From the NCBI GenBank assembly GCA_020072845.1, contig JAIQGF010000001.1, forward strand, positions 186,001 to 250,000: a stretch of DNA of 64,000 bases, given 5' to 3'. The position numbers and the translations under genes were made by a program. Source of the DNA: Terriglobia bacterium. Lineage in GTDB: Bacteria > Acidobacteriota > Terriglobia > Terriglobales > Acidobacteriaceae. Below, in pieces: positions 8,489 through 52,586 of this stretch. Position 1 is the stretch's first letter. The number at the start of each line of letters is the position of its first letter. The notes below the pieces were generated by a model, which worked only from the letters and a program-made list of their open reading frames with translations, ran no database searches and was not told the DNA's origin.

Positions 8489-9648
8489 AAGAGCTTCTCC
8501 ACGAACATGCAATCCCCGTACGAATAAAACCTGTACCTCTTCTCCACCGCATGCTTGTACGCTGAAAGCACCTGCTCCCGCCCGGCAAACGCGCTCACCA
8601 GCATTAACAGCGTGGATTTCGGCAGATGAAAATTCGTCAGCATCGCCCCTACAATGCGAAATTCAAATCCCGGGTAAATGAAGATGTCTGCCTCTCCGCT
8701 CCCGGGTGCGATCTCCACGGTTTTGCTCGGTACTAGGTACTCGGTACTCGGTACTCGCGAAAGCGCCGCATACTCCAACGTCCGCACCGTCGTGGTCCCC
8801 ACCGCCACCACCCGTCTCCCCGCCGCCAGCGCGCCATTGATCTGCGCCGCCGCTTCCTCCGATATCCGGTACCACTCGCGATGCAGCTTGTGCTCTTCCA
8901 CCTTCTCCGCATGCACCGGCTGAAACGTCCCCAGCCCGACATGCAGCGTGATCTCCGCCGTCTCCATCCCCCGCGCCCGCATCCGCTCCAAAATTCCCGG
9001 CGTGAAATGCAGCCCGGCGGTGGGCGCCGCCACCGACCCCCGCGCCCGTGCATAGACCGTCTGATACCGCTCACGGTCCGCCGGCGCATCCGGACGCGCA
9101 ATATAGGGTGGCAACGGCACGTGCCCGATCCGCTCCACCACCGCGAAAAAGTCCTCCACCGGCTCGAATCGCAGGGTCCGCTCGCCAAATTCCCCGCGCG
9201 CAATCACCTCCGCCCGCAGCTCCCGGTTTTCGCCAAAAAACAGCTTCTCTCCAACCCCGATCTTTCGCCCCGGTCGAACCAATGCATTCCACACCAAGGG
9301 ATTTTCCGCCGTCGACCGTAGACCGTCGACCGTCGACTCCACCGGTCCCGTGAGCAAGACTTCCACTCTACCCTTCAGAAATTCCTTGGCCGCGGGATTG
9401 CGCTTGCTTACCGGCTGCGATCTTGCCCCGCTCCTGTGTCCATACAATCGGGCCGGAAACACACGTGTGTCGTTGAACACCACCAGGTCATCGGGACGAA
9501 GCAGGTCTGGCAGCTCGCGAAACCAGCGGTCCTCCATTCGACCAGTCTCCCGCGCCAGGTGCAGCATGCGCGACGCCGCCCTGTCCGCCAGCGGTGCCTG
9601 CGCGATCAGTTCTTCCGGAAGGTGGTAGTCGAACGCAGATACGAGCAC
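8485..9648 (-). CDS. queA: tRNA preQ1(34) S-adenosylmethionine ribosyltransferase-isomerase
   Basis: QueA transfers and isomerises the ribosyl part of S-adenosylmethionine onto preQ1 at tRNA position 34 to form epoxyqueuosine. The sequence shows the family start [17 protein letters not shown], then [26 protein letters not shown], and [21 protein letters not shown] near the end. The start is GTG at 9648. At 387 residues it exceeds the usual 340-350. The excess includes two stretches translated from short tandem repeats, residues about 103-114 ([10 protein letters not shown]) and 297-308 ([11 protein letters not shown]). Both stay in frame and lie between conserved blocks, so the enzyme is probably functional. 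The gene converges on the preceding orphan gene with a 4-base overlap. Confidence 0.95.
8726..8758. repeat. GGTACTCG tandem repeat inside queA
   Basis: Four copies of a GGTACTCGGTACTAGG-like word, in frame within queA, encode [11 protein letters not shown] on the minus strand. Confidence 0.75.
9308..9342. repeat. GTCGACCGT tandem repeat inside queA
   Basis: Four copies of a GTCGACCGTAGACC-like word, in frame within queA, encode part of an [13 protein letters not shown] stretch. Confidence 0.7.
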
Positions 9649-9650
9649 GG

Positions 9651-9744
9651 GTAATCTCGTAATTTTGTATTTGGTAATTTAGTAATTTTTCGGGCCGTGT
9701 TCCGGCAAATTACCAGATTACGAAGTTACCAAATTACGAAATCG
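9651..9744. repeat. GGTAATTT-word inverted repeat
   Basis: The left arm has GTATTTGGTAATTTAGTAAT and the right arm AAATTACCAGATTACG and AAGTTACCAAATTACG. The arms can fold into an AT-rich hairpin in the divergent queA / aldolase promoter region. Confidence 0.7.
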
Positions 9745-9806
9745 GCCGTTTGCCTGCCCCCGCTCCCGTGCGTTACCATGCTCGGGCCCCGAAGGCCAGC
9801 GCAATT

Positions 9807-10790: not shown

Positions 10791-11090
10791 ATGGGTGAAG
10801 CATTGGGAATGATTGAAACGCGCGGTCTGGTGGCGATGATTGAGGCCTCCGACGCCATGGTGAAGGCCGCCAAGGTCACGCTGGTGGGCTGGGAAAAGAT
10901 CGGCTCGGGCTACGTCACCGCCCTGGTGCGCGGCGATGTGGCCGCCGTCAAAGCCGCCACCGACGCCGGCGCCGCCGCCGCGCGCCGCGTCGGCGAACTC
11001 ATCGCCGTGCACGTGATCCCGCGTCCGCACGCCAGCCTGGAAGACGTGCTGCCCATCGGCCGCGTCATCACCGCCAAGGCCGGAGCCTAG
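10791..11090 (+). CDS. Bacterial microcompartment hexameric shell protein (BMC-H)
   Basis: The 99-residue product is a single BMC domain. It begins [20 protein letters not shown], continues with a [21 protein letters not shown] strand pair, and ends [16 protein letters not shown], all close to the PduA/EutM/CcmK pattern. Six copies form a flat hexagonal tile with a central pore, and the GSG loop (about residues 40-42) would line the pore as in PduA-type shells. It follows the putative cargo aldolase by 113 bp and has its own ribosome-binding site (GGGAG). A single BMC-H plus three BMC-P genes is a small set; no BMC-T gene is in the window. Confidence 0.95.
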
Positions 11091-11191
11091 GAATTGGTAA
11101 TCGGGTAATTTGTAATTGGGCAATTTGTCCGAAGCCCGTTGGCAATCGAGCTTTCGTTTTCAATTGCAAATTACAAATTGCAAATTACAAA
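11091..11191. repeat. GGTAATTTG-word inverted repeat
   Basis: GGTAATCGGGTAATTTG and GTAATTGGGCAATTTG face CAAATTACAAATTGCAAATT. This can form a hairpin between two shell-protein genes. Confidence 0.7.
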
Positions 11192-11227
11192 TGCAGCGGG
11201 CCGTTCGCGCCCGCAAGGATCATTGCG

Positions 11228-11554
11228 ATGCTTCTCGCACGCGTAGTAGGCACGGTAGTCGCCACGCGCAAGGACGACCGCCTGCAAGGCCGCAAGCTGC
11301 TGGTCTGCCGTTCGGTCACGCCGGACGGCACGGTGGAGGGCGGCTACGTCGTCGCCGTGGACACGGTGGGCGCCGGCGTTCATGAAACGGTGCTGCTGGT
11401 GAGCGGTTCCTCGGCCCGCATGGCCGGCGGAAAGGAATCGCCGGTGGACAGCGCCGTCGTCGGCATTGTGGACGAGGTCCGCACCGAGAACGACTCCGAG
11501 TCTTCGTCTTACAACAAGCGCACCACCGCCGTCGCCGGCAAATCGAAACACTGA
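11228..11554 (+). CDS. Microcompartment pentameric vertex protein 1 (BMC-P, EutN/CcmL)
   Basis: The 108-residue product opens MLLARVVGTVVATRKDDRLQ and continues with GRKLLVCRSV, AVDTVGAGVHETVLLVSGSSA and SPVDSAVVGIVDEV. These are the four recognisable blocks of the EutN/CcmL/CsoS4 family, which forms pentamers that close the vertices of microcompartment shells. The first of three consecutive BMC-P genes. The N-terminal strand motif A-x-V-x-G-x-V and the terminal VGIVDE motif are shared by all three. The 22-residue tail is polar. No strong ribosome-binding site is visible before the ATG, so it may be translated less than its neighbours. Confidence 0.93.
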   Translation: MLLARVVGTVVATRKDDRLQGRKLLVCRSVTPDGTVEGGYVVAVDTVGAGVHETVLLVSGSSARMAGGKESPVDSAVVGIVDEVRTENDSESSSYNKRTTAVAGKSKH

Positions 11555-11637
11555 GGGTAATTGCCGAATTGCCGAACTGCGGAATCGGTGAATTGGTTTT
11601 CAATTCGGCAGTTCGGCACTTCCGCAATTCCGCAATG
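11552..11637. repeat. GAATTGCCG-word inverted repeat
   Basis: AATTGCCGAATTGCCGAAC is faced by AATTCGGCAGTTCGGC and TTCCGCAATTCCGC. A hairpin between BMC-P genes 1 and 2 is possible. Confidence 0.7.
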
Positions 11638-11646
11638 GGTTAGCTC

Positions 11647-12421: not shown

Positions 12422-14785
12422 CTACTCTCCTCCGATGCGAAATCTCATTCCCGCGCGGAAATTCGCCCGCAGCGCCGGATATCCCGCCGACTCCTCGTAA
12501 TGCCGGTTGAGTGCGTTCTCGATATTCACATACGCGGTCATGCGGCTGTTGATCGCGCGCCACACGCCGAAATCCACGCGCGCGTAGCCCGCACTGTGCG
12601 TCACCGGCGGCAGCAGCCCCAGGAAATCGGAATCCGTGCGGCGTCCCAGAGCGGTCACGCCCACATCGCCGCCCCAGCGCCGCGCCGCGTACACCGCCAG
12701 CATCGAAGCCGCGTGCTTCGGCCGGCGCAGCAGCGGCGCGCCCGCGCTCAGCAGCGGATCGAACGCCAGCGGCGCGTTCAGGATCTGGGTTGAGGTGTAG
12801 GTATACGACGCGTCCACGCTCAACCGCGACCACGGCCGTGCCCGGAATTCCACCTCCGAGCCGTGCGCCAGCGCGCGGTTGATGTTCAGATACTGGCTGA
12901 CAAACAGCACCGGATCGAAGTTGAACTCAATCTGGTTGGTGAACAGGTTGTTGAAGTAGGTCGCGCCCAGCCAGTACTTACCCCCGACAAAGCTTTGCTG
13001 CACGCCCGCTTCCAGCGATCGGTTCTCCTCCGCCTTCAGGTTGGGGTTGGGAATGATCCCGAATCCGCCGACGCCGAACGATTCCTCCAGCCTCGGCTCC
13101 TTGATCCCGGTGCCGTAGGCAAACCGCAGCCGCGTGCCGGAAAAACTCCGGCCGCCCTTCAGCGCCAGCACACTGGCGGCAATCCTCGGCAGCACGCGAT
13201 TGCCGAAACTCTCGTTGCGCTCGAAGCGCGCGCCCGCGATCACCGTCACGCGCGTCCAGGTCAGCACCTCCTGCCCGAACACCGCGTGATTGCGCCGCAG
13301 CCCGTGGCCGAGCGGCAGCGAGGTCAGGTCTCCCACCCAGCCGTTCTCGTCCTCGAAGTGATAGCCGACCGTGGTTCGCGCCCAGCTTCGCGCTACGTAA
13401 TCGCCCTGGTAGTCGAAGCCGGCGCGATTGAGGTTGGCAAAATCGGAAAACGGGAAATCGAAGTTGCCGAACGCCGGCGAGACGCGTCCCGGATCCATGA
13501 ACGTGTCCACCACCGAGCGCCGGTGGTGATATTCGAAGCCACTGAAGCGGTGCTGCCAGCGCGATGGGCCCGCGATCGTCAGCTCGGCGCTTGCCAGGAA
13601 GTTGTTCTGCCGCGCGCGCGCGTCGCTGTCCGGCGGCAACAGCGGCTGGCCGTTGAAGTTCCAGAAACCCTGCACGCCGGTGCGGTCGGTGAAATGCCGC
13701 GTGCGCAGCCGGAATGTGGCGCGCGGCGCAATCTGTACCCCGATGTTGGCGCCCTCCAGCGAACTCGAATATTGGTCGTTGCTCCCCTGCCCGCTGGTGT
13801 TGAACTGCTCGCCGAACAGGTTGTAGTCGAATCGTCCGCGCGCGCCCGCCAGCGACACGTAGCCGCGCGCCGTGCCGAAGGTTCCGCCTTCCGCGCCGAA
13901 GCGCACCTCCGGCGTGCGCGTGGTTCCGGTCGCAGTCCAGGTCTGAATGACGCTGGTCATCGCGTCCGAGCCGTAGAGCGTGCTCTCCGCGCCGCGCACG
14001 AACTCCAGCCGGTCCACCTGGTACATCGGCGCCACGCCGAAATCGAAGGTGCCTCCGGGATCGTTCACCGCGACGCCGTCCACGATGACCTTGTTGTAGC
14101 GCGAGTCGCCGCCGCGCACGAACAGCGACGACAATCCGCCGCGCCGTCCGCTGGCGCTCACGATGGCTCCCGGAAGGAAGCGCAGCGTGTCAATCGCGCT
14201 CACGGGCTGGGTGGATGTCAATGCGTCCGGACCAAGCGACGACGTGTCGGAACCTGTGTCTTGACTGGGCAGGGGCGTGCGCTCCGCGCTCACCACCACG
14301 GTTGCCGCCGCGCTTGGCAGCTCCAGCTTGACCGTGATCTCGGCCTCGTGAGCGACCGAAGCCGCTTGCACGAGATTGACCTTTTCCCGCGCAGCCGACG
14401 CGTTGGTCATCGCCGGTGCAAATCCCGGGGCCAGCACTTCCACGCGATATGTTGTTGCGCTCAGTCCGCTGAACGCGCATGTTCCCTCGGCATTCGTCGT
14501 GCGCACCGCGACCGCGGTCGAGCTGTTCTGCGGATATACGGTGACGCGCGCGCCCGCCACCACCGCGGACTGCGGATCAACGACTTTGACCTTGAGCTCG
14601 GAGGCAAAGCTGCTCGCGACGGCCACGCTCGCCACCAAGATAAGAGTGGCAATGATGCAACGCGATAGCAATGGGAACCAGCCCGCAAAGCGGGCGGAAT
14701 TCGTTAGCCCACCGCGGAAGCGGTGGGAAAGCTGGAAGAAGAAAGCAGAGCGCCAGCGGCGCGACACAGGGACAAGCACGGCCAT
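12422..14785 (-). CDS. TonB-dependent outer-membrane receptor, BtuB-like (cobalamin uptake)
   Basis: Near the N-terminus is a signal segment (about 45-62, IIATLILVASVAVASSFAS). A carboxypeptidase-regulatory-like beta domain follows (about 65-160, GARVTVYPQNSS), then a plug domain (LFVRGGDSRYNKVIVDGV, EFVRGAESTLYG) and a barrel of about 500 residues ending in RAGMRFRIG. The cobalamin riboswitch upstream points to vitamin B12 or another corrinoid as cargo. The start is uncertain: a GTG at 14797, the ATG at 14785, a GTG at 14779 after AAAGGAGG, or a TTG at 14671. The TTG would begin directly before the signal peptide and skip a hairpin-rich stretch. I list the ATG. No tonB or btuCDF genes are adjacent. 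Confidence 0.9.
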   Translation of the reverse strand: MAVLVPVSRRWRSAFFFQLSHRFRGGLTNSARFAGWFPLLSRCIIATLILVASVAVASSFASELKVKVVDPQSAVVAGARVTVYPQNSSTAVAVRTTNAEGTCAFSGLSATTYRVEVLAPGFAPAMTNASAAREKVNLVQAASVAHEAEITVKLELPSAAATVVVSAERTPLPSQDTGSDTSSLGPDALTSTQPVSAIDTLRFLPGAIVSASGRRGGLSSLFVRGGDSRYNKVIVDGVAVNDPGGTFDFGVAPMYQVDRLEFVRGAESTLYGSDAMTSVIQTWTATGTTRTPEVRFGAEGGTFGTARGYVSLAGARGRFDYNLFGEQFNTSGQGSNDQYSSSLEGANIGVQIAPRATFRLRTRHFTDRTGVQGFWNFNGQPLLPPDSDARARQNNFLASAELTIAGPSRWQHRFSGFEYHHRRSVVDTFMDPGRVSPAFGNFDFPFSDFANLNRAGFDYQGDYVARSWARTTVGYHFEDENGWVGDLTSLPLGHGLRRNHAVFGQEVLTWTRVTVIAGARFERNESFGNRVLPRIAASVLALKGGRSFSGTRLRFAYGTGIKEPRLEESFGVGGFGIIPNPNLKAEENRSLEAGVQQSFVGGKYWLGATYFNNLFTNQIEFNFDPVLFVSQYLNINRALAHGSEVEFRARPWSRLSVDASYTYTSTQILNAPLAFDPLLSAGAPLLRRPKHAASMLAVYAARRWGGDVGVTALGRRTDSDFLGLLPPVTHSAGYARVDFGVWRAINSRMTAYVNIENALNRHYEESAGYPALRANFRAGMRFRIGGE
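14681..14727. repeat. Paired REP-like hairpins at the receptor N-terminus
   Basis: Two perfect palindromes: GCCCGC-AAA-GCGGGC (14681-14695) and CCCACCGC-GGAA-GCGGTGGG (14708-14727). They lie within the annotated N-terminal codons of the receptor, or in its leader if the TTG at 14671 is the true start. Confidence 0.7.
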
Positions 14786-14818
14786 CCTCCTTTGCACGCG
14801 AAAGGGGTTGTGGTTGGC

Positions 14819-15030
14819 GGTTCGCGCCGGTCTCCTGGCTTGCGACTTCTTCAGTTGTGAGTTGTGAGTTTTGAGTTCTGAGCAAGAATGCGATTGCTCA
14901 AAACTCAGAACTCACAACTCAGAACTCGACGCGCCTTCCCATCTTTCGACAGTGGCAGCGCCGGCGTACAGCGTCGCTTACAGTTGCGCGGCAGCGCGGG
15001 CTTTGCACCCGCTTCCCGTACGCGCGAACC
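14819..15030 (-). ncRNA. Cobalamin riboswitch with an expanded peripheral hairpin
   Basis: On the minus strand, in order, are GGTTCGCGC (closing stem), GGGAAGCGGGTGCAAAGCCC, GCGCAACTGTAA, GCCACTG, GGGAAGGC, and finally GCAAGCCAGGAGACCGGC followed by GCGCGAACC. The last pairs perfectly with the first nine bases to close P1. These are the conserved blocks of the AdoCbl-type riboswitch in their usual order. Between GGGAAGGC and AAGCCAGGAGACC an extra hairpin of about 70 bases is built from GAGTTGTGAGTTTTGAG-like words and their complement (14866-14935). The element precedes the BtuB-like receptor gene, whose expression it should repress when corrinoid is abundant. Confidence 0.9.
14866..14935. 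repeat. GAGTTxTGAGTT-word hairpin inside the riboswitch
   Basis: The plus strand reads GTTGTGAGTTTTGAGTTCTG, then a short loop, then CAAAACTCAGAACTCACAAC. Each arm holds three to four copies of a 7-8 base word. Confidence 0.8.
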
Positions 15031-15167
15031 AAGGTTGTCAAAGAACGTCACGCGAGCGCGTGAGCGGTACGACTCTATGGCCGATTGGAAGTTATGTCAA
15101 TGTCGGCGGCGATGGCGGGTGGCTGATAGCTCTGCGCTACGGCACGAAGCGTAACCTGTGCGATGGC

Positions 15168-48900: not shown

Positions 48901-51900
48901 ACATTGCCGGTAAAGGCGAGCCGGCCGTTGGGCGCAATGACGACATTGGAGGGGTTGGCGCCGACCTGGGTCGGTAGCCCACAGCACAGCGGGGCGGGAT
49001 TGGGGTAGCCGCTGTAGGCCTGGACCGTGCTGGTTTCGTAGTCGGTGAGCAGCGTGGTGAGATTGGAACCTAGCGCCCCGGTAACCGTGACCGTCGTCGA
49101 GGCCGAGTTGTCGGCCGAGTTGGCGTCGGTGACCGAGGAGCTGACCGAGGCGTTCGCGACGTAGGTTCCCTGCAGCGCCGCGCTGGCGAAGATGGTAAAG
49201 GAGACGGTGCCCAGGCTCGGGATGTCGGGCAGCGTGCAGGTGACCTGCCCCGCGGCACTGCAGGACACACCGGCCGAGGAGGAAGAGAAGCCCACGTACG
49301 ACAGGCCCGTCGGGCTACTGCCGGTAAAAGACACGCCGGTCGCCGTATCCGTCCCGTTGTTGGTAACGGTGATATTGAAGGCGGCGCTGCCGCCGACGGG
49401 AACGACTGGGGAAGTCGTCGCCAAGGTCACAGAAAGATTGACGTTGGCTTTGACGGTAACGGTAAAAGGCGGCGGCGTGTTGTTCGCGCCCGGCCCGCCG
49501 TTGGGGCCGTCGTCCACCACCTGCGAACTGGAAACCGTAAAGGTGGCGCTCAGCGAACCGGCGAGGTGCGGGGTGACGTTGATGACGATGACCGTACTGG
49601 AAAAGGGCGTGAGATTCACGACGGGACAAGTGACCGTGCCGGCAGAGAGAGCGCAGCCCGCAGTCGATGCCCCTTGGTTGAACGTCACGCTTGCCGGCAA
49701 GGGGTAGCTGACAATGATGCCCGTGGCGGTGCTGGGACCGTTGTTGGCGGCGGTGACGGAATAGTTAAATGCAGTGCCATTGGTGACGGAACTGGGGCTG
49801 CTGATACCGGTAATCGTCAAATCCGCCCGCCGCTGCACGGTCACCGACATTGAGGTCGCGTTGTTCGTCGGCACGGGATCGTCGGCGGCGGTGGACACCG
49901 TGGCCGTGGCGGTCATGGTGGGTCCGACCGGCGGCGTTGCCAGGGTGTTGGCAGTAACGTTCACTGTGACGTCCACGCCTGCTCCAGGAAACGCTACCGT
50001 ACCCAAGCTGCAGGTAAACGTCTGCAGGCCGGAACACGTGCCCTGGCCGGCGATGACGCTGTTCACGGTGAGGTTGGTGGGCATAGCCCCGGACACCACC
50101 ACGGAGGACGCCGGATTCGGCCCGTTGTCAGTCACGACAATGGTGTAGGCATACGTCGTACCCTCGGCCGGCGTGGCGCCCACCGGAGAGGACATGCTGA
50201 TGCCTAGATCGGCGCCTGCCGACACGGTCACGGTCAACGATGTCTGGTTGCACACCGAGCCGGCACAGGCAGAGATGCTCGTGGACCCTAATGCCAGGCC
50301 GTAGGCGTGGCCATGATTGGTGGCGTCGTTGGTGATGGAAGCAACCGTGGTGGTGGAAGAGCTCCAAGTGACGGATTGCAAAATTTCGGTGTGACTATCG
50401 GCGAAGGTGCCGGTCGCCACGAACGGCTGGGCCGTGCCGACAGCCAGGGTTGGGGCCGCAGGCGAGATGGCGATGGAGACCAGGTTGGGCGGGGTGAGGC
50501 TGGCGGCGGTGTAAAGTTCGGCGCTGTTGAGGTCGCCGCCGCCGCCAAAGCCGCCCGCGACCAGGACGCGGCCATCCTTAAGCAGCGTGGCGGAATGGAT
50601 CCCTCGCGCCGTGCCCATGCTGCCGGTTGCAGCGAACGTACCCGTCGTCGGGTCGTAGGCCTCGGCGCTGCTGAGCGCGATGCTACTCAAACCGCCCGTA
50701 ATCAGGACGCGGCCTTCTTGCAGCAGCGTGGCCGTATGCGCGTCCCGCGCCGTGCCCATGCTGCCGGTGGCAGCGAACGTGCCCGTTGTCGGGTCGTAGG
50801 CCTCGGCGCTGTTGAGCGCGGCGCTACCGTTGGGTGAGCCGCCCGTAATCAGAACCCGGCCGTTGTTCAACAGCGTGGCCGTGTGGAGGTACCGCGCCGT
50901 GCCCAAGCTGCCGGTGGCAGCGAACGTGCCCGTTGTCGGGTCGTAGGCCTCGGAGCTGCTGAGCGCGGCGCTACCGTTGGGTGAGCCGCCCGTAATCAGG
51001 ACGCGGCCATCATTCAGCAGCGTGGCCGTATGGGCGAACCGCGCCGTGCCCATGCTGCCGGTTGGGGAGAAGGTGCCGGTCGTCGGATCGTAGACCTCGG
51101 CGCTGCTGAGATAGCCGCTCGTGTCGTTGAAACCGCCGGTGATAAGAATGCGGCCATCATTGAGCAGCGTGGCCGCATGCACGTATCGCGCCGTGCTCAT
51201 GCTGCCGGTCGGAGTGAATGTGCCTGTAGTCGGATCGTAGAGTTCGGCGCTGCTGAGAACGCTGCCGCCGTTGTTACCGCCCGCAATCAGTACGCGGCCG
51301 TCATTCAGCAGCGTGGCCGTATGGAAGTACCGCGCCGTGCTCATGCTGCCGGTTGCAGCGAATGTGCCGCTCGCCGGATCGTAGATCTCGGCGCTGCTGA
51401 AATAGCTGCTGCCGAAGAGAGCGCCGCCCGCAATCAGCACGCGACCATCATTCAGCAGGGTGGCCGTATGGTACGCCCGTGCCGTGCTCATGCTGCCGGT
51501 GGTGGGGGTGAAGGGGGTAAAGACTTCGGCGCTGCTGAGATAGCTGCCGTTGTAACCGCCCGTAATCAGGAGGCGGCCATCCTTCAGCAGCGTGGCCGTA
51601 TGGTAGGCCCGATTTGTGCCCATGCTGCCGGTTGCCGTGAACGTGCCCGTCGCCGGGTCGTACGCCTCGGCGCTGCTCAGATAGCTGCTGCCGCTGTAAC
51701 CGCCCGCAATCAGGACGCGGCCATCATTCAGTAGCGTGGCTGTATGGTCTAGCCGCGCCGTGCCCATGCTGCCGGATGCCGTGAAGGTGCCCGTCGCCGG
51801 ATCGTAGACCTCGGCGCTGCTGAGGTTGCTGCTGCTGCTGCTACCGCCCGCAATCAGGACGCGGCCATCCTTCAGCAGCGTGGCCGCATGGTAGCCCCGC

Positions 51901-52586
51901 GCCGTGCCCATGCTGCCGGTGGCAGAGAACGTGCCCGAGGCCGGGTCGTAGACCTCGGCGCTGCTGAGATAGCTGCTGCCGTTGAAGCCGCCAGCGATTA
52001 AGACGTGGCCATCATTCAGTAGCGTGGCCGTATGGTCTTGCCGCGCCGTGCTCATGCTGCCGGTGGGCGTGAACGTGCCCGTCGCCGGATCGTAAACCTC
52101 AGCGCTGGCCGAAGCGCCACTGCTACTGATGCCGCCCGTAGTCAGGACGCGGCCGTCATTCAGCAGAGTGGCCGTGTGTCCGTATCGCGCCGCGCTCATG
52201 CTGCCGGTGGGCGTGAACGTGCCCGTCGCCGGATCGTAGACCTCGGCGCTGCTGACGATGTTGCCGCCGTTCCACCCGCCGGCAATCAGGACGCGGCCAT
52301 CATTCAGCAGCGTTGCCGTATGGTAGCCCCGCGCCGTGCCCATGCTGCCGGTTGCCGTGAAGGTGCCGGTCGCCGGATCGTAGAGTTCGGCGGTATTGAG
52401 GGTGCTGCTGCCGTTGAGACCGCCCGCAATCAGCACGCGACCGTCATTCAGCAGCGTGGCGGTATGCTGATACCGCGCCGTGCTCATGCTGCCGGTGGGA
52501 AACGCAAAAGGCGGGGCCTGTGCGATGGCTATACTGCCAATCCCCAGGCACAAGAGTGCGAGGACAACAAACGCACGTAGTTTCAT
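39642..52586 (-). CDS. Giant secreted kelch/DUF11/beta-propeller protein
   Basis: The frame runs unbroken for about 4,314 codons from the ATG at 52586 (MKLRAFVVLALLCLGIGS, signal peptide). In order: 14 kelch repeats of about 48 residues (nt 50590-52520); a BIG2-like domain; several DUF11 domains (to about 49000); a YVTN-type beta-propeller; an IPT/TIG domain (about 47790-48030); a second propeller; DUF11; a third propeller; a second IPT/TIG (about 44600-44820); a fourth propeller; more DUF11; a NIDO-like domain (about 41585-42240); DUF11; a PKD-like domain (DGSASVDADGDPLTYRWSG, about 40240-40440); an Ig-like domain; a membrane segment; and a C-terminal beta strand tail. It is likely a surface adhesin or matrix protein. 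Confidence 0.9.
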   Translation of the reverse strand: MKLRAFVVLALLCLGIGSIAIAQAPPFAFPTGSMSTARYQHTATLLNDGRVLIAGGLNGSSTLNTAELYDPATGTFTATGSMGTARGYHTATLLNDGRVLIAGGWNGGNIVSSAEVYDPATGTFTPTGSMSAARYGHTATLLNDGRVLTTGGISSSGASASAEVYDPATGTFTPTGSMSTARQDHTATLLNDGHVLIAGGFNGSSYLSSAEVYDPASGTFSATGSMGTARGYHAATLLKDGRVLIAGGSSSSSNLSSAEVYDPATGTFTASGSMGTARLDHTATLLNDGRVLIAGGYSGSSYLSSAEAYDPATGTFTATGSMGTNRAYHTATLLKDGRLLITGGYNGSYLSSAEVFTPFTPTTGSMSTARAYHTATLLNDGRVLIAGGALFGSSYFSSAEIYDPASGTFAATGSMSTARYFHTATLLNDGRVLIAGGNNGGSVLSSAELYDPTTGTFTPTGSMSTARYVHAATLLNDGRILITGGFNDTSGYLSSAEVYDPTTGTFSPTGSMGTARFAHTATLLNDGRVLITGGSPNGSAALSSSEAYDPTTGTFAATGSLGTARYLHTATLLNNGRVLITGGSPNGSAALNSAEAYDPTTGTFAATGSMGTARDAHTATLLQEGRVLITGGLSSIALSSAEAYDPTTGTFAATGSMGTARGIHSATLLKDGRVLVAGGFGGGGDLNSAELYTAASLTPPNLVSIAISPAAPTLAVGTAQPFVATGTFADSHTEILQSVTWSSSTTTVASITNDATNHGHAYGLALGSTSISACAGSVCNQTSLTVTVSAGADLGISMSSPVGATPAEGTTYAYTIVVTDNGPNPASSVVVSGAMPTNLTVNSVIAGQGTCSGLQTFTCSLGTVAFPGAGVDVTVNVTANTLATPPVGPTMTATATVSTAADDPVPTNNATSMSVTVQRRADLTITGISSPSSVTNGTAFNYSVTAANNGPSTATGIIVSYPLPASVTFNQGASTAGCALSAGTVTCPVVNLTPFSSTVIVINVTPHLAGSLSATFTVSSSQVVDDGPNGGPGANNTPPPFTVTVKANVNLSVTLATTSPVVPVGGSAAFNITVTNNGTDTATGVSFTGSSPTGLSYVGFSSSSAGVSCSAAGQVTCTLPDIPSLGTVSFTIFASAALQGTYVANASVSSSVTDANSADNSASTTVTVTGALGSNLTTLLTDYETSTVQAYSGYPNPAPLCCGLPTQVGANPSNVVIAPNGRLAFTGNVNGSYISVVDLTIQAEIARIRDVGGWSIAITSDGQKLVSVSYNRDELDIIDIATFAVTRISLDGKVLDAAGVNDIHPFSLALVGYQAYIANEFGPVMVVNFANPASPGISTVTGTAALLALHAGHQVAATPDGSTVAVFDRLKTGGSALVYLISTSTNTLSQTVTMTFGGARTIAITRNPNAASGVVAFLGFPGGAIRVLDLRSGSATYGQLLTGSVALGSPVTDMALTPDGNTLQAVNGVFQGSAGPHSTLYTLNAALIVTSPSTALVSTVVIPNSISVRGLAIGYVQNFPLPSAPQVSDVVPQEITNEAPKLVRIFGDNFTAGALVRIGNLDPLPSTFVSPQEVTVTVPAGAAVQVGSIVVTLPNSAAGALAANVSGGGSYGGGEKLRIDPPATFAPSHPVAISGYGVPKLSLLFRDSALLPGGPFSPGIAISPDGLYAYSGLAEVDVTNLDTQQSLSPILGPTSGFGSQTFYDCIGGGDNYAIAPDPTTGKKVLYLVSCDAATESSDTLYFVDVDPSSTTTRNTLLARTIQVPNTDFFSSQGLAVTPDGRYVYSVDARNVSPAVSRLVIFDVLNSTSTIIADITTLGADPTQQHIHVTPDGHSLLLSGTGGASIKVYDIQGANALAPVLVKTITGSGANPPLLYWFQVVGARLFAYASDQRYVEVFNFDRANNNFASIGSYTIPSPPGRFAGAPMAVTPEGTLIYAVLESEDAVAVLEYNPVALSNPISLITKMRTAVNPANVAVSPRGNASADLEAGIFSALPLQVDSTTGLAALNTPFDLSVHVLNNGPSAATGVNMTLAIPAGAVVNSASVISGPLSIVCTITTSQVACPVGTLGTSNSITVDVNVTATSLGTLAFTNTVSGNESDPNPANNAATLNVMVANGADLAITGSVSPNPAVAGSPNTRTWVITNNGPDVASAVTVNFSSTAHSPSTYTSTQGGCTSTPGATICSPGNILPGGQVTITFTSTFVASDASANGTVTITGSVSANTADPNFANNVFVLNLPLTNAATPIEHLFVGDFYTGTLTSVNVSDNAIVASDIPGGVGPNAIAFSPNRHLAFVTNQVDYLTVVDLPTRSELKRIPIVGRAQNAAVTPDGSKLVVPNSNQDKVLIIDTTTFQIVQTINLNGLVGDNAAVTNDIQFGSIVIANNKAYIATTNTSPKLGVIVINLATNAVSVAAGSNLAHGISLLTSTIAALPDGSAVIVPQQGPNQLIRIDTTTDTVTATLPLSFTPDGLVITPSASNPTGVFGFVTTSSFFPPRLQRVNVTSGLALLGSGFSLPLDDDSYMAINSDGTRLYVVASVDPAAYGATPFNVAVIDTTVFASNPSASVVTRLAIGHGPQLAGVGFTDLLPAPGSPAITQVSPQVFTNDVATTLTISGAGFASDSTVKIGTLAALPATFNSSNQLQVIVPAGSAAQEAPLVVTNPNTAAPPNGQNLSGIFTGTPGAIGTSGTGVNGVDILSPLSFQPKYQVAVVDNADTQINFIERELRHRGTTAGYSHTGGIAFAPDGSQFFLPSFFTPTSPSSTGFGVIAGVVGGSSTTIDLPSSNFPNGDTIATGPNPRTGRPVAYVMSVTPTGNLRQLNLIDADPYSPAVNTVIDSIATNTSTTLTGGLAVTSDGKYVYTSISSATASLLIFDILNHTATPITASSLGTLPGSSLQHVEVTPDGQSLILQGATTGQVLVFDLSVNPLTGASPLSPKLLTTITGVVPPGLVAGPLSTSRVVGNHLFIHNPSQKLVEVFNFDRATSNFSFVNYFIVPTATGGPGMIVTPDGLIYVSLGALDDGVAIIDGNALIASAVQGDPSVLITKVATGRRPWQLAVNPKRLDTAPADFGIAISHSPDPVALGSNITFNVTVSDFGPFLGTGNDSNGSNGGFLINFDKSLSAISSSFFNSPFFDCTLSGNQLLCGFSHNGPNPGPPPISISGTLVLQTTTPGAVTVQGKIDGGSYDPNPANNTATDTANVVAADLGVTMTASAATVAPGANLTYTIVVTNNGPSVSSGYTLTDTLPANVTFVGATSGCVLTTVLTCSGPALGVGLNATYVVVVTPTALGALSNTASVTGNEPDTAPGNNSATSTVTVAAAVADVAVAMTASPSPVAVLGSVTYQITLTNNGPSPATGVVLTDTLPVGTLFASIDDLTDCAVSNGALTCNFTSIAAGNSPTVNLILVPLAVPSGEGTFTNTATVTANEPDPALPNNSATQTVQVTGANLSGGGALRNLPGFSNTITLPNDDDSFGPVPLGFTVNFFGVQVSSLFVNNNGNVTFGSPLGTYTPFPLPTTNLQIIAPYFSDVGTYQIGSGLVTYGNDTVNGRPAFGVNWPNVDYFGEAAPTLLNLFQLVLVDRSDVNPGDLDIEFNYDKIQWETGAASGGVDGLGGDSARVGYSNGTGTTGSYFELSGSAVPGSFLDGNAATGLIYSTLNSTQPGRYIFQVRNGVVQSSADLAITATGPQYAVAGSTVTYALTAVNGGPNTATGVTVTDTLPVGLTFVSATPGTICPTPPIPAADQPVVVTCNVGSIANGSTVNIAIQATVAAGVSGSLTNTAVIAAPNNQDLNLGNNTATVVTSANVADLAVSAAGAPSPVGGFPAFAATVTNNGPAGATNVVLTDLLDNYGFVSASSTQGACTFSAPTVTCSLGALANGASAVVTVAVTAPNAGWAANTYHASADQPDLNPINNSFRLGPSLDSFNTPVGTNIAVNISDPADNLIALTTFSTVTRIGSTTMASMSATSPPPGFRSGLQPAFFDISTNAEYVGAIALNIHFSPANFRHPALLRLFHFEGGTWVDRTTGLNASSGVIAGQVMSLSPFALLEPVDTIPVANAGGDRSVPGAMTAGARVTLDGSASVDADGDPLTYRWSGPFPEGGGTVTGVNPTVTLALGVSKVSLVVNDGEADSPAVAANIAVADFQVSAPAGSVALNRGQSTTFTITMTPQYGAFGAPINLSCAPGAADVTCSFSSASVTPGAAAATATLTVTAVSTVARAPGRSTPAYIAVWFGTLPVFGMVFLAAGRRKKWQMAVLLMLLLLLVASHIGCGGGGTTQTQSSSRSTPGAKAVSITVTGTSGTLQHSSSVTVTIPQ
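50590..52520 (-). repeat. Fourteen kelch-coding DNA repeats
   Basis: The plus strand repeats CGCGCCGTGC[CT]CATGCTGCC about every 144 bp from 50608 to 52480. Units are alike enough at DNA level to recombine. Each encodes GSM[SG]TAR-x-x-HTATLL[NK]DGR and an IAGG strand. Confidence 0.9.

Follow-up and report, generated by a model that had tools for sequence, protein, structure and literature searches.

Upstream of a BtuB-like receptor gene in a Terriglobia bacterium lies what is best explained as an ordinary translational OFF B12 switch, with a dispersed tandem-word hairpin seated in its variable arm and with aptamer and expression platform intact; we put the probability of this reading at about 0.82. 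The analysis covers one window, a 64,000-nucleotide stretch of contig JAIQGF010000001.1 to which all coordinates refer, and its genome is called G000 below. Where the insert lies, its predicted structure, its absence in relatives, and the other words that congeners carry can be read directly from the sequences. When B12 is bound, L5 would pair with the loop of the ribosome-binding-site (RBS) hairpin and so close the RBS, whereas the inserted hairpin would fold on itself and spare both the aptamer and the expression platform. The insert was probably tolerated near-neutrally; it would have arisen within this genus, and its words would then have turned over, in place or by replacement. The features are as follows.

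12422-14779, minus strand: BtuB-like TonB-dependent receptor (best hit TIGR01779, 171 bits)
14786-14805, minus strand: expression platform hairpin CCUUU(CGCGUGC)AAAGG, overlapping the RBS AGGAGG and conserved in the family
14808-15042, minus strand: cobalamin riboswitch aptamer RF00174, complete model match, 78 bits
14819-14827, minus strand: P1 3' strand GCGCGAACC, pairing with 15022-15030
14828-14840, minus strand: B12 box AGCCAGGAGACCG, 3' border of the variable arm
14852-14927, minus strand: hairpin insert of GAGTTNT heptamers, 76 nt (arms 14897-14927 and 14852-14882, loop 14883-14896)
14934-14940, minus strand: GGGAAGG block, 5' border of the variable arm
14987-14990, minus strand: putative L5 loop CGCG (GCUGCCGCGC), complementary to the CGCG loop of the RBS hairpin
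15022-15030, minus strand: P1 5' strand GGUUCGCGC, perfect complement of 14819-14827

A complete cobalamin riboswitch aptamer

A cmscan search against Rfam matched RF00174 from end to end (model positions 1 to 189, E 1.7e-17), and the score of 78 bits lies above the gathering score of 31.5 bits. The core blocks and the B12 box were also found in the leader itself, as GGUGCAAA, CAACUGUAA, GCCACUG, GGGAAGG, and AGCCAGGAGACC. An earlier note on this DNA had claimed that all conserved blocks of a cobalamin riboswitch are in place and that P1 is a perfect 9-bp helix; the full model match and the blocks read in the sequence bear out the former, and the exact complementarity of the two P1 strands the latter. 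The leader departs strongly from the model at one point only, where extra sequence separates the GGGAAGGC strand from UCGC, the latter closing the next helix ahead of AAGCCAGGAGACC. The covariance model puts the repeats in an insertion with the GGGAAGGC side on one flank and the AGCCAGGAGACC box on the other, as expected from the proposal that the hairpin lies within a riboswitch that has kept its core; because of this placement, and because all blocks are present, the hairpin is not outside the switch and the core is not incomplete. The score is nevertheless lower with the insert (78 bits, versus 96 bits in the insert-free congener G003), a point against the best explanation, although length penalties alone could cause it.

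Downstream gene and expression platform

The riboswitch sits upstream of a B12-related gene, the best NCBIfam match of the receptor being the B12 receptor TIGR01779 (171 bits, short of the 599.7 bits of the equivalog cut-off). Translation likely starts at the GTG at 14779-14777, 6 nt past AGGAGG, and the longest open reading frame begins at 14797. The RBS overlaps the 3' side of the platform hairpin, which is nearly invariant in the family and is kept as CCYUUUCGCGUGNAAAGGAG in four of four congeners. The loop at 14987-14990, which we take to be L5 by literature numbering, is complementary to the loop of this hairpin, so that L5-L13 complementarity occurs together with a platform at the RBS. 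Leaders with CCGCG in L5 have CGCG downstream in 45 of 45 cases and GGGG or GGGA in 0 of 45, and those with CCCC in L5 have GGGG or GGGA downstream in 24 of 31; because most of these leaders are orthologous members of a single family, the 45 cannot be counted as separate events, which tells against the best explanation. In known cobalamin riboswitches an L5-L13 kissing loop closes the RBS (PMC10653944), and the swap from CGCG/CGCG to CCCC/GGGG(A) fits this interaction. Since core, RBS hairpin, and loop-loop complementarity are all conserved, the leader is most likely a working translational OFF switch in which the hairpin is tolerated; from the intact regulatory parts we infer repression of translation by B12 as the expected behavior.

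The extended N-terminal coding region of the receptor contains an Acido-Lenti-1 RNA element (RF01687, 40 bits) at 14680-14727 on the minus strand. Congener G001 carries a copy in the corresponding receptor region (C120:14049-14094), so the element is found there in both G000 and G001. With 107 matches in G000, 125 in G001, 97 in G002, and only 10 in G003, Acido-Lenti-1 behaves as a dispersed repeat. The receptor region before the mature protein (14617-14797, minus strand; L062, L104, L100) is strongly diverged among the four congeners.

Structure of the insert and its word in the genome

The insert is an unmodelled insertion in the variable arm of the peripheral domain, next to the GCGA/UCGC helix. 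Two 31-nt arms enclose a 14-nt loop and form 31 predicted pairs, with -45 kcal/mol for the hairpin folded alone. In the fold of the whole leader, which lies 7.3 standard deviations below its own dinucleotide shuffles, the hairpin is an isolated domain in both the minimum-free-energy and the centroid structure. The peripheral stem is thus built of words, namely degenerate tandem heptamers in complementary arms, with a period of 7 (P ≤ 0.005 versus shuffles). The earlier note had rightly placed a hairpin in this arm, but its length of 70 bases falls slightly short of the 76 nt found.

The pattern GAGTTNTGAGTTNTGAG matches 30 times, at about 17 places, across the 4.23 Mb of the genome, and the reversed pattern never matches, in agreement with the claim that such word-repeat hairpins belong to the genome at large. 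It is rare in 59 other genomes of the family (2 matches in congener G002, 1 in G004, 11 in G010). Many GAGTTNT sites of G000 fold into hairpins resembling the riboswitch insert. A survey that covered 144 kb of G000 together with the corresponding syntenic DNA of the three congeners G001 to G003 revealed numerous tandem-word hairpins of other words, and shuffled sequence yielded 0 hairpins with such periodicity. Checked as a MITE- or REP-like element, the insert has uninterrupted relatives and flanks too diverged to show a target duplication; no recent or near copy was found elsewhere in the genome, the best other copy being 83% identical over 77 nt.

Many GAGTTNT hairpins of G000 (L003, L018, L019, L021, L023, L027, L031) end in AACTG and not in AACTC, and this end may represent the fixed terminus of an element. 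RNase P RNA, a second structured RNA, contains no tandem words in G000, G001, G003, G029, or G169.

The variable arm in relatives

In the leaders read, GGGAAGG and AGCCAGG are about 21 to 111 nt apart, and the space usually holds an unrelated simple stem. Because the order-wide RF00174 search gave best-scoring matches only, long arms were sought by a gapped pattern; arms of 66 to 96 nt were found in 26 of 397 genomes of the order, a count that includes non-riboswitches (G339 and G084 do not look like one). The arm is hypervariable across the order, and the earlier suggestion of a position that tolerates insertion is supported. Periodicity at P ≤ 0.005 was detected in 7 of 49 arms tested, those of G000, G001, and G002 and those of four members of a second genus (G009, G365, G241, G169), where 7-mer words around AATTGCY or AATGCYR lie inside the native stem; tandem words have therefore entered the arm in at least two genera.

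At the orthologous position, congener G001 carries an insert of the 7-mer AGTTTCY (GAGTTTCTGGTTTCCGGTTTCTAGTTTCTAG and its complement), of exactly 76 nt and with 31 pairs, and congener G002 a hairpin of the 6-mer AGTTTC, so that three different words occupy one stem in G000, G001, and G002. The arms measure 93, 94, and 81 nt, respectively; the arm of congener G003 has 22 nt and no hairpin. The nearest leaders outside the genus, G029 and L118, have arms of 23 nt without a hairpin, and G018 has one of 22 nt without an insert. The comparison of orthologous leaders that the earlier note had proposed thus gave other-word hairpins in two congeners and none in G003 and the outgroups, and its wording that the hairpin "entered" the RNA is reasonable given the insert-free leaders in G003, G029, L118, and G018. 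The outgroup genes are only 61 to 64% identical at the protein level, which weakens the best explanation. A six-taxon DNA tree, which is effectively btuB plus one neighbor and also took in an ORF antisense to btuB, makes G001 and G002 sisters and leaves the placement of G000 and G003 unsettled (which of G003 and G001+G002 comes first).

Origin and turnover of the words

One ancestral hairpin and repeated insertion appear about equally likely. A single ancestral insertion, plausible if short of even odds, would have been altered where it stood: slippage and copying, coordinated between the arms, would have changed its words and kept the arms complementary, and in G002 most units of either arm would have gone from 7 to 6 bases. 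G001 and G002 are sisters, and their inserts align with mostly single-base losses per unit, in both arms, and with shared ends, which fits such a history. Recent arm-to-arm copying is argued against by the N positions of the G000 arms, which are unmatched across the stem (5' units C, G, C, T versus G, G, T, C), and the inserts of G000 and G001, agreeing in borders and length, are no more similar than unrelated hairpin pairs.

Independent insertions into the three congeners are likewise a serious possibility that falls short of being probable; the arm would then be the only site in the RNA that survives insertion, and the shared position would reflect a selective filter and not an inherited element. 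The differing words point this way, as do the unrelated words that share a place at the orthologous intergenic sites A, C, D, and K, the four members of another genus with words in the arm, and the local scores of the G001 insert (up to 74 with non-orthologous hairpins, 47 with its G002 ortholog). On the other hand, the borders agree in three of three inserts (GAGTT start, AACTG end) and G000 and G001 both have 76 nt, although shared borders are weak evidence because AACTG ends are common among hairpins of the GAGTTNT word; moreover, the 3' flank TTTGTCGC is common to G001 and G002. The G002 insert scores 47 with its G001 ortholog and ≤37 with other hairpins of the G001 word class, in a comparison that includes few paralogs; it also scores 48 with one other hexamer hairpin and 57 with its own reverse complement.

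At other orthologous intergenic sites, the word is kept (G, M), slightly changed (B, F), or retained in some species but swapped for another in the rest (A, C, D, K, L). More tentatively, tandem-word hairpins may constitute a class of replaceable elements: at fixed sites, including one within a riboswitch, sister species would keep the hairpin but have its whole word exchanged or re-phased in both arms alike, by a DNA process shared with cyanobacterial intron stems.

Several other repeats were observed in the window. An octamer hairpin (AATTTNGT) at 9640-9760 is nearly identical to its G001 ortholog, loop included, within flanking DNA that is 84 to 87% identical; at this site G002 has a different word (CRGTC...) and G003 none. 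Arrays of AATTGCCG at 11550-11640 are common to G000 and G003, and G001 and G002 have one-sided GAAACYA arrays there. The hairpin at 11085-11200 has a left arm of mixed 8- and 7-mers and a right arm of 7-mers, as if one arm had been overwritten. A tandem array with a 144-base unit (13.8 copies, 78% matches) occupies 50518-52498.

That the hairpin has acquired a function in the switch, for example by slowing transcription before the B12 box or serving as an RNase III site, with its helix under selection, is unlikely. The 31 pairs kept in both G000 and G001 despite their differing words are what such selection could leave; however, pairing is general to these hairpins wherever they are found, the hairpin is missing from G003 and the outgroups, and the arm shows no conservation otherwise. 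Still far less credible is an ordinary lineage-specific variable stem that looks repeat-like by chance, for although the arm usually holds some stem, this is contradicted by the periodicity (P ≤ 0.005), the 30 genomic word copies versus 0 in the control, and the 0 tandem-word hairpins in shuffles.

Comparison with known systems

In this soil Acidobacteriota genome, the one site where a B12 switch normally accepts extra RNA holds a hairpin of the genome's own words, and hairpins of other words stand there in close relatives; genome repeats can thus colonize a regulatory RNA and go on changing there with its core preserved. One orthologous position offers a natural series (no insert, a 7-mer, another 7-mer, a 6-mer) in an RNA with measurable function. 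With this series, two matters become open to experiment: the extent of repeat invasion that a riboswitch will bear, and the way in which tandem-word hairpins, familiar from cyanobacteria but as yet unexplained, originate and acquire new words. That the variable arm accepts stems is the established part of the finding. A literature search with incomplete journal coverage turned up no earlier description of a repeat hairpin within a riboswitch.

For heterocyst-forming cyanobacteria, Vioque (1997) reportedly described STRR heptamers in the gene of RNase P RNA; so far as that account goes, the likeness lies in tandem heptamers inside a structured RNA gene, and the differences are another RNA and another phylum. 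The TAACTGA heptamers of Beggiatoaceae share with the present words the form of intergenic tandem heptamers; in the accessible portions of their description they are direct repeats almost solely, of unexplained origin, patchy across phyla, and not described in hairpins or riboswitches (PMC4679880).

Cobalamin riboswitches are known to contain long variable insertions that form stem-loops and leave the aptamer core undisturbed, as well as an optional P8-P10-P11 domain (Barrick and Breaker 2007, PMC2258182). The leader described here resembles them in combining a complete aptamer with a long, non-conserved stem-loop insertion that leaves the core alone; unlike an anonymous stem, however, this insertion belongs to a genome-wide set of tandem-word hairpins, with a word that differs between congeners. 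The P6b stem of the Nostoc tRNA-Leu(UAA) group I intron always consists of one of two heptamer classes, TDNGATT or NNTGAGT, which have repeatedly replaced one another (PMC4476775). In both cases degenerate heptamers build up the two complementary arms of a stem at the periphery of a structured RNA, and word classes replace one another; the G000 word, read as (TGAGTTN)n, fits class II NNTGAGT, a comparison of motifs that makes no claim of homology. The Nostoc stem belongs to a self-splicing intron in Cyanobacteria, in contrast to a riboswitch in Acidobacteriota, where there are more word types, including a 6-mer, and some relatives without any hairpin. Insertion-tolerant riboswitch arms and heptamer-built, word-switching hairpins in the Nostoc trnL intron are thus already known; what looks new is their combination in a riboswitch and in Acidobacteriota, with turnover of the word between congeners.
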